A DNA stretch of 38,799 nt from Candidatus Methanocorpusculum faecipullorum (GTDB lineage Archaea > Halobacteriota > Methanomicrobia > Methanomicrobiales > Methanocorpusculaceae), in contig JAHLFR010000013.1 of assembly GCA_018883755.1 (NCBI GenBank), positions 1-38,799 of the forward strand. The letters run 5' to 3'. This document shows positions 26,840 to 28,563 of the stretch, one piece after another. The notes under the pieces were generated by a model that was given only the letters and a program-made list of their open reading frames with translations, made no database searches and was not told where the DNA came from. Position 1 is the first letter of the stretch, and each line of letters starts with the position of its first letter. Position numbers and translations under genes: made by a program.

Positions 26840-27238
26840 ATGGAAAGAAAAAGCATCCTCATACCTCTTGCGGTTGTCCTCATCCTTCTCAGCTGCTTTG
26901 TCGGTGGTCAGTATTTCTTTGCACACTCCAATTCAGCGATGATCGACAACTCATGGTACTTCTCAATACACCAGACCAACTATACCGATCAAAATCCTCC
27001 GCCCCAAGCTCTCCCTGTTGTACGCCTAACCGAAGAGGACTTTGCCAAACATCCAGTCCTCCATGATCTCTTTGAACAGCGGCAGCTGGTCCTGATCACT
27101 GATGATCCCTTTCTCATTATGCAGATCTCCGGACCGCATATCAGCCATGCAGAGGCAGAAGAACTGATAGCCGCCTACGATCTGGGATACATCGACTGGA
27201 ACGGCAGCTACTACTCACTCACACAAATATTCACGTGA
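26840..27238 (+). CDS. small membrane-anchored hypothetical protein
   Basis: 132 residues from ATG 26840. One N-terminal hydrophobic helix (about residues 7-27), then an exported domain with LTEEDFAKHPVLHDLFEQ, LVLITDDPFLIM and HAEAEELIAAYDLGYIDWNGSYY. No known family. GGAG at 26824-26827 gives a possible Shine-Dalgarno. A longer frame from 26426 runs through the antisense of the aldo/keto gene and is rejected. It shares promoter architecture with the duplicated regulator module, and its tail overlaps the next gene. Confidence 0.7.
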   Translation: MERKSILIPLAVVLILLSCFVGGQYFFAHSNSAMIDNSWYFSIHQTNYTDQNPPPQALPVVRLTEEDFAKHPVLHDLFEQRQLVLITDDPFLIMQISGPHISHAEAEELIAAYDLGYIDWNGSYYSLTQIFT

Positions 27239-27243
27239 TAACT

Positions 27244-27855
27244 ATGGACCAAACACAAACAGCCCGGCTCAGCGTCGTCTTTATCTCCCTCCTGTACTTC
27301 CCGTCGCTCATCGTACTCAGCTTGATGATCACACACCTTCAGCCGCTTTCAAATCCCGTACTTACCTGTCTCCTCTACGCAGTTACCCTCCTCTTCCTCC
27401 TCTTGCCTGCCGCCGGCTGCTGGATATACCGCGAAATCCGCAGTCTGCCCAGATATTACCTCCTCCTCAGCATCATTCCGATCATTATTTGTGCGACAGT
27501 TCTCTTCTTCACCCCCATACTTGGCAGCGGTATTTCCTCCATCTTCTCTGCAATCTATCTCTTAGTTATTTTCCTCAACCCGTTCATTCAGCTCCTCTAT
27601 CTTCCTGTATGGCTGACCATCCCTTCCACCACCCGCCCATACTACATCCCCCTCCTCCTTGCGATCATCTCCCCGGCATTGCAGATCCTCATCAACGTCC
27701 TGTGGGTCCTGGAGATCTTATCAGTCAGAGATGCAGTGCCCGTTCTTCTCTGCATCTCCTTTGTCGTAAGCATCCTTGCCGGAATCACTCTCCTCATCCT
27801 GGGAATAACCCACCCGGAAATTCCCACATCCTCCTCGTCAGGGAGCACATCTTAA
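27244..27855 (+). CDS. polytopic membrane protein of unknown function
   Basis: 203 residues from ATG 27244 (a GTG at 27235 overlapping the previous stop is an alternative). Four to six hydrophobic helices (LSVVFISLLYFPSLIVLSLM, then several Leu/Ile-rich segments), and a Ser/Thr-rich C-tail. No family recognised. Cotranscribed with the 26840 gene by overlap or close spacing. Confidence 0.65.
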   Translation: MDQTQTARLSVVFISLLYFPSLIVLSLMITHLQPLSNPVLTCLLYAVTLLFLLLPAAGCWIYREIRSLPRYYLLLSIIPIIICATVLFFTPILGSGISSIFSAIYLLVIFLNPFIQLLYLPVWLTIPSTTRPYYIPLLLAIISPALQILINVLWVLEILSVRDAVPVLLCISFVVSILAGITLLILGITHPEIPTSSSSGSTS

Positions 27856-27868
27856 TTGCTCATACGCA

Positions 27869-27880
27869 CCATTATAATAG
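27869..27880 (+). promoter_or_regulatory. mbh operon TATA box
   Basis: ccattataatag, a good archaeal TATA element, lies about 145 bases before mbhA. By usual spacing the start would be near 27898-27903, inside or just after the first hairpin of the leader. A weaker element (cttaattgc, about 27851) would allow an earlier start. Confidence 0.55.
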
Positions 27881-27881
27881 A

Positions 27882-27976
27882 TGCAGGTCCGGAGGTGACC
27901 CGCAACCGTTCTTCCGACGGGAAGAACCTGGCACGACCGATGGTGGCGTGCAATACCCTACTGCCGTAGGGAGGTG
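27882..27976 (+). ncRNA. hairpin-rich leader of the mbh operon, candidate cis-regulatory RNA
   Basis: Four successive hairpins can be drawn. H1: GGTC (27886-27889)/GACC (27897-27900), loop with GGAGGT. H2: GTTCTTCC (27908-27915)/GGAAGAAC (27920-27927), 8 bp perfect. H3: GCACGACC (27931-27938)/GGT...CGTGC (27942-27951), with a GG bulge. H4: CCCTAC (27956-27961)/GTAGGG (27966-27971), loop TGCC. H4 overlaps the Shine-Dalgarno GGGAGGTG at 27969-27976. An alternative long-range pairing joins TGCAGG (27882-27887) with CCTGGCA (27927-27933), and CGG in the H1 loop can pair with CCG at 27906-27908. This resembles a riboswitch with a translational expression platform; no class is confirmed. Confidence 0.5.
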
Positions 27977-27979
27977 TGT

Positions 27980-28027
27980 ATGAACAAACAGATGAACACA
28001 ACAACAGGGGGACTGCTCTGCCCATGA
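27980..28027 (+). CDS. 15-residue upstream ORF (leader peptide) coupled to mbhA
   Basis: ATG 27980 follows the strong Shine-Dalgarno GGGAGGTG (27969-27976) at close spacing and encodes MNKQMNTTTGGLLCP. Its stop overlaps the mbhA ATG as ATGA (28024-28027), the same coupling used between most genes of this operon. The Shine-Dalgarno is partly held in hairpin H4. Peptide production is not proven; the alternative GTG 27976, in frame with mbhA, lies too close to the Shine-Dalgarno. Confidence 0.45.
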   Translation: MNKQMNTTTGGLLCP

Positions 28028-28563
28028 AAAGCATCGTCCCGTTTATCTCAGCAACCGTTGCTGCATTTATCATTTATCTGGTATTATCCGTTGGAAGTGC
28101 CGGAGAAACCAACTCGATTCTTCTCTGGTCAGTACCCGAACTCATCATTGGACTAATCCTTTCGATTATTACCGGGCTGCTATGCCGCAAGCTCTGGCAG
28201 GGAAAACGCTACACCATGGCCAACCCTCTCCGCTGGCTTCTGCTTGCCGTCTATATCATTCCGTTTGTAATCGAACTGATTATTGCAAACCTGACAGTTT
28301 CGTGGAAGATCATCACCGGCAAAAACATCCGTCCGGGTATCGTCAAACTCACACCCGGCCTGAAAACGGATGCCGGAGCACTCCTGCTCTCGGCCTCCAT
28401 CACCTTCCAGCCCGGAACCGCAACCGTTGATATCAACGAAAAAACCCGCGAGATGTACATCCACTGTATCGATGTCGGCGAGGCACCGGTCAAGTGTATG
28501 GAGCCCGGCAAAATCTTTGCCAAGCTCGATCTCGTCAAATGGATCCGGAGGATTACCGAATGA
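28024..28563 (+). CDS. mbhA: Mbh hydrogenase subunit A (MrpE/MnhE-like)
   Basis: 179 residues from ATG 28024 (MKSIVPFISATVAAF). Two or three N-terminal helices, then the MnhE signature: NPLRWLLLAVYIIPFVIELIIAN, KIITGKNIRPGIVKL and TFQPGTATVD, and CIDVGEA near the C-terminus. MrpE-type subunits help assemble the Na+/H+ antiporter part. First gene of fourteen in the same order as the Pyrococcus furiosus mbh operon. It overlaps mbhB by 4 bases. Confidence 0.9.
   Translation: MKSIVPFISATVAAFIIYLVLSVGSAGETNSILLWSVPELIIGLILSIITGLLCRKLWQGKRYTMANPLRWLLLAVYIIPFVIELIIANLTVSWKIITGKNIRPGIVKLTPGLKTDAGALLLSASITFQPGTATVDINEKTREMYIHCIDVGEAPVKCMEPGKIFAKLDLVKWIRRITE

Follow-up and report, generated by a model that had tools for sequence, protein, structure and literature searches.

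Translation of neighbouring genes by termination and reinitiation at an ATGA stop-start overlap is known from both archaea and bacteria; this type of coupling was strict in 13 of 14 gene pairs tested in Haloferax and E. coli, and in Haloferax a Shine-Dalgarno (SD) sequence before the downstream start was not essential for reinitiation (Huber et al. 2019, PMC6728339). The mbh leader described here shares the ATGA overlap but differs from those gene pairs in having a 15-codon leader ORF in place of an annotated gene as its upstream member, and in that the SD of this ORF is partly closed by a hairpin. A structured leader with a short ORF before the main gene is also known from leader-ORF translational regulators in general, for instance in M. 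tuberculosis, where a uORF is coupled to a B12 riboswitch (PMC11260477); compared with that system, the mbh leader comes without an aptamer domain or ligand evidence, and its peptide is not conserved between clades. The Na+ (DUF1646) riboswitch, like the mbh leader, precedes a gene of ion biology (here an MnhE-like antiporter subunit), but this class was described from bacteria and needs P1/P2 and strictly conserved nucleotides for Na+ binding (PMC9337991), whereas the mbh leader has no Rfam match. Finally, Ribo-seq of another methanogen, Methanosarcina mazei, indicated that short unannotated ORFs are translated (PMC11456600), in a report whose abstract is silent on mbh leaders.

The mbh locus and its relatives

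The window, i.e., the whole stretch of 38,799 nucleotides that was analysed, carries 3' of the leader an operon for an Mbh-type energy-converting hydrogenase (Pfam MNHE, MrpF, MnhG, MbhD, MnhB, Proton_antipo_M, Oxidored_q6, and Complex1_49kDa). Mbh was already known to be present in Methanocorpusculum labreanum (PMC2686161), and among named genomes the closest MbhA proteins belong to Methanocorpusculum petauri (G004, whose leader shares the conserved core), an Hm464 MAG, and Candidatus Methanorbis basalitermitum. Between 28024 and 36223, most mbh genes are joined by ATGA or 1-nt overlaps and carry an SD, so that the operon looks translationally chained. The exception at its head is mbhA, which is not preceded by a 4-nt SD match; such a match stands before each of the other mbh genes except mbhI, whose start is uncertain.

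Leaders were gathered from congeners with an mbhA match, and the close clade comprised the window genome plus G004, G007, G021, G017, G019, and G015; a contig scan of the genomes for further close-clade leaders yielded no new one. Background gene sets were taken from the window and one contig each of G019 and G011. The sequence elements (Table 1), their conservation, the compensated pairs, and the background rates are direct observations. All elements named in the preliminary description (four hairpins, an SD, a 15-codon ORF, and its ATGA overlap with mbhA) were confirmed in the sequence, and we regard the leader as a real, lineage-specific translational leader of a general kind already known, belonging to a Methanocorpusculum/Methanorbis-type archaeon.

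Table 1 Features of the mbh leader and the start of the operon, in window positions
Feature	Position	Strand	Remarks
Probable TATA box, TTAATT within CTTAATTGC	27852..27857	+	kept in 7/7 close-clade genomes, G015 included
Near-perfect palindrome CCATTATAATAG, containing the TATA box first proposed (TTATAATA)	27869..27880	+	conserved in 6/7 close-clade genomes
Hairpin A, TGCAGGTC/GACCCGCA, one A.C mismatch	27882..27904	+	predicted 5' end of mRNA; 83% of cells paired in six genomes
Genome-specific insertion of ~50 nt (about 47 net nt), hairpins 1 and 2	27905..27954	+	from alignment with relatives
Hairpin 1, GTTCTTCC-GACG-GGAAGAAC	27908-27927	+	from the sequence
Hairpin 2, GCACG/CGTGC	27931-27951	+	from the sequence
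SD-abutting hairpin, CCCTAC-TGCC-GTAGGG	27956..27971	+	97% of cells paired in six genomes
SD of the micro-ORF, GGAGGTG	27970..27976	+	two bases inside the SD hairpin; identical in six genomes, GGAGA in G015
Micro-ORF, 15 codons, MNKQMNTTTGGLLCP*	27980..28027	+	own SD GGAGGTG; stop overlaps mbhA start (28024) by ATGA
mbhA (MnhE-type antiporter subunit)	28024..28563	+	Pfam PF01899, E 3.7e-28; first large gene of the mbh operon

Promoter and predicted 5' end

Leader alignment of the close clade places TTAATT at a fixed offset, and tRNA genes in related contigs are preceded by TATA-like boxes such as CTTAATAT, GTTAATAA, and TTTTAATG, which makes TTAATT acceptable as a TATA box. At the same alignment place, the second clade (G011, G014, G016, and G020) has TATAAATTAC/GC, with the motif TATAAATT, and G013 has TATAAATTCG. 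From these alignments, the probable TATA box is that at 27852-27857 and not that at 27871. Archaeal TATA boxes are centred about 26 nt upstream of the transcription start, and transcription would probably begin at about 27879-27881, directly before hairpin A; given this TATA box, hairpin A is likely transcribed. The earlier caution that a TATA box at 27871 might put the start near 27900, at the loss of what was then called hairpin 1, is probably wrong: the box at 27852 is conserved even in G015, and two clades retain the base pairs of hairpin A.

The palindrome itself is perfect (CTATTATAATAG) in G004, G007, G021, G017, and G019, and at its position G015 has CTATTGATGG, which is not TATA-like; it is more likely an AT-rich melting/initiator region or an operator than a TATA box. 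One could imagine that the operon is controlled at transcription, with the palindrome as operator or initiator and a mostly passive leader whose hairpins affect only mRNA stability or basal translation. We consider this unlikely. The close clade conserves the palindrome at the predicted start, which speaks for this model, as does a related AT-rich motif in the mbh promoters of other families; but a motif of this kind in porB promoters resembles a core promoter box, and thus the palindrome need not be an operator. Two further points, one on each side, come from the folding of the leader (see below).

A 16-nt motif, ATTATTRATCATGAYA, was seen repeatedly in the mbh promoters of other families, at roughly -108 to -148 relative to mbhA; its loci include mbhA promoters of other Methanomicrobiales (e.g., L109, L111, L115, and L119) and also L120, L123, L124, L128, and L130-L132. 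In the close clade, the motif also lies 32 nt ahead of a gene for a porB-like pyruvate:ferredoxin oxidoreductase subunit, and three genomes have it 36 nt ahead of a porG-like gene, with the por names read from translations. At least 43 listed matches were obtained in 61 genomes, versus a handful for the reversed control. It may represent the site of a shared regulator, or merely the favoured TATA box of leaderless por mRNA. Upstream of mbh lies a 206-aa membrane-like ORF (27235-27855) that had no Pfam match and whose stop codon falls inside the probable mbh TATA box.

Conserved and private hairpins of the leader

Two hairpins of the leader are shared with relatives. Hairpin A has a core of GGTC/GACC (27886-27889/27897-27900) that can be extended to the arms given in Table 1, and it shows one wobble change and no double change among six close-clade genomes. 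An equivalent hairpin at equal offset occurs in the second clade (G011, G013, G014, G016, and G020), where 94% of cells are paired and changes in the 5' arm almost all keep a pair; the invariant 3' arm makes the shuffle control uninformative in this clade. The hairpin A loops differ between relatives. On the loop side, at 27891-27898, the window genome alone has an SD-like GGAGGTGA, with no start codon at a useful distance, where relatives have GGAGCTGA, GGAGCCGA, and GGAGATGA.

The second shared hairpin abuts the SD of the micro-ORF. It contains two compensated pairs (UA->CG and CG->UA) in G017 and G019 relative to the other four of six genomes; this covariation score was reached by 9 of 500 shuffles, and sliding the partners broke most of the pairing. 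The close-clade structure rests on six or seven sequences and two compensations at most, and covariation among so few sequences is supportive, not proof. In G015 the hairpin is weak (about 4 bp, judged by eye). Across the relatives, the loop of the SD hairpin varies (UGCC, CGU, CGC, and GUCUU). Among 217 SD-led starts scanned in the background sets, only 1 has a perfect stem of 6 bp or more that ends inside its SD. The estimated cost of opening GGAGGTG is about 9.0 kcal/mol, which places it at the 94th percentile among 192 SD-led genes; about 10% of shuffled leaders reached that cost. Because the cost is high without being exceptional and such stems are rare, closure of the SD by this hairpin appears to be a real but moderate brake. 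The SD hairpin proposed earlier thus survives comparative testing, as a hairpin that includes two of the SD bases and is conserved with compensatory changes. The rarity of the stem and its compensation would be left unexplained if control were purely transcriptional.

These same properties would suit an RNA thermosensor, or a switch responding to a protein or sRNA, in which temperature or a factor opens the SD hairpin and the micro-ORF relays the signal to the operon: the hairpin is conserved with compensation, uncommon, and costly to open. We nevertheless regard such a switch as distinctly unlikely, for there is no conserved unpaired binding site, the loops of both shared hairpins differing among relatives, the hairpin covers only two SD bases, and no competing conserved conformation of the leader was found. 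For a thermosensor in particular, several of the MAGs come from animal guts, some of which presumably have a fairly constant temperature.

The other two hairpins have a different history. In place of 27905-27954, G004, G007, and G021 have about 3 nt, with flanks 88-95% identical on both sides, and the leaders of G017, G019, and G015 are similarly short there. Hairpins 1 and 2 are therefore an insertion in the lineage of the window, unless the contig, which comes from a single MAG, was misassembled here. No second copy of the insert was found in its own genome assembly (80% complete), nor a copy in 231 other genomes of the class or, searched as an exact 20-nt pattern, in viral contigs. We also considered that the insert might be a diverged tandem copy of the unit of hairpin A and SD hairpin, but rejected this, as three of four alignment settings scored no better than shuffles, with p 0.04 in the remaining one. 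Comparison of the stems across relatives, as proposed in the preliminary description, therefore gave a divided answer: the SD hairpin and hairpin A are kept, the former with its two compensated pairs, and hairpins 1 and 2 are absent. A hairpin chain acting as one unit is not borne out, and the suggested alternative pairing TGCAGG/CCTGGCA is not conserved and depends on the insert, like any pairing that uses the two private hairpins.

Of 200 shuffles, 197 folded less well than the 107-nt leader (z -2.49). This excess comes mostly from the insert, which alone folds with z -2.96, whereas the leader without it has z -1.2. The slight thermodynamic excess of the conserved leaders (z -0.2 to -1.5 in six close relatives) fits the idea of a mostly passive leader under transcriptional control. 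Opening of the SD is barely altered by the insert (9.0 kcal/mol with it, 9.6 without), and the double hairpin, which sits between two conserved modules, is probably tolerated rather than needed. A bolder scheme, in which hairpin A and the SD hairpin form a lineage-specific riboregulator that senses a temperature, protein, or sRNA signal and throttles the ATGA-chained operon through the micro-ORF, with the 50-nt double hairpin as a new element added in the window species, seems to us doubtful at best.

Control of the SD by a metabolite or ion riboswitch (Na+, Li+, Ni, molybdate, or tungstate) is very improbable. What prompts it is the layout, in which hairpins before an occluded SD stand ahead of an ion-pumping hydrogenase, and this had led to the earlier reading as a translational riboswitch or RNA thermosensor and to the guess of Na+ as ligand, as in the DUF1646 class. 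Rfam release 15 was searched with all models, which covers the Na+/DUF1646, nhaA, and MoCo types if present; no match was returned in the window at the gathering threshold, nor on the sense (+) strand of 27700-28130 at E<=10. A covariance model (R1) of the conserved leader gave one strong match in each of seven genomes of a single genus, always before mbh; outside mbh, matches other than that in G001:C9 (E 1e-4) were weak, and none was convincing. No conserved unpaired aptamer core was found in the leader, and relatives have less than 50 nt of leader before the SD and lack two of the four hairpins. The ligand reading is thus unsupported, given the missing Rfam match, a covariance model confined to mbh, and variable loops, as is the Na+ guess.

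The micro-ORF and its probable coupling to mbhA

The coupled micro-ORF proposed earlier survives comparative testing. In each of the 15 congeners with a readable leader, a short ORF stops no more than 8 nt from the start of mbhA. The ORF of the window itself occurs in 7/7 close-clade genomes, with a strong SD in all but G015 (a weaker GGAGA), and the overlap is ATGA in the window genome and G021, GTGA in G017 and G019, and replaced by a TAG 7-8 nt before the start in G004, G007, and G015. The eight other congeners instead have unlike short ORFs that overlap mbhA in this manner, with weaker SD support. Three unrelated peptides were distinguished, namely MNKQMNTTT.. (close clade), MRNKSKLRG.. 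(second clade), and a ..YWTMGDDI* or YWTxGDDI-type (third), of which only the first comes with a strong SD. The amino-acid sequence is not clearly under selection, and unrelated peptides at a conserved position are what would be expected if coupling, and not the peptide, is kept.

How often such an arrangement arises by chance was assessed in 300 genes whose leaders measure 80 nt or more, under several limits on the SD match. Any ATG micro-ORF with an NTGA overlap was found in 12% of these genes, so that loose overlaps of this sort are not rare, one with a 4-nt SD in 3%, and one with a 7-nt SD match in 3 of 300 (1%), two of which are apparently mbh loci. The remaining one, probably the sole non-mbh case in the sample, lies on contig C6 of G011 at about 331579-331626 (L107/L108), where a 16-codon micro-ORF (MTYSAVGSRRSVVFGT*) with a strong SD (GGGAGGTGAG) overlaps the start of a ~330-codon gene.

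Since mbhA has no SD of its own in the window, ribosomes most likely enter at the micro-ORF, which would be coupled to mbhA, and the missing SD suggests that mbhA depends on translation of the leader ORF. An alternative mbhA start at GTG 27976 was rejected, as its SD spacing is too short and no such start exists in G015 or the other clades. In the second clade (G011, G014, G016, and G020), an SD precedes mbhA itself and that of the micro-ORF start is only weak, and coupling may therefore matter less there. Details differ further among congeners: in the second-clade leaders L041, L042, L043, and L045 (G011, G020, G014, and G016, respectively), a small hairpin (TGAT...ATCATG) sits at the start codon of the micro-ORF, with G013 differing, and in L046, L048, and L049 (G008, G024, and G005), the third-type micro-ORF ..YWTxGDDI*, whose peptide end is common to the three genomes, contains the likely mbhA SD.

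Overall, we favour as the probable reading a hairpin-tuned ribosome entry site combined with translational coupling of an ordinary kind. Transcription would start near 27880, yielding an mRNA that begins with hairpin A, a possible protector of the 5' end. Ribosomes would initiate at the micro-ORF, which carries the only strong SD before mbhA, at a rate lowered and set by the SD hairpin, whose 3' arm holds the first two SD bases. They would end the micro-ORF at TGA 28025-28027 and restart at the overlapping mbhA AUG, which has no SD of its own, and stop-start overlaps of like kind would link most of the later mbh genes. In this scheme, the transcription start, real translation of the micro-ORF, its coupling in vivo, and any regulation of the SD hairpin are what we infer from sequence comparison.

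Little is known of natural translational control elements in methanogens. Should the micro-ORF indeed be the entry site for the hydrogenase operon, the mbh leader would offer a compact, testable archaeal case of leader-ORF coupling, in which the micro-ORF stays in place while its peptide changes from clade to clade. It would also account for translation of the first Mbh subunit in the absence of an SD.
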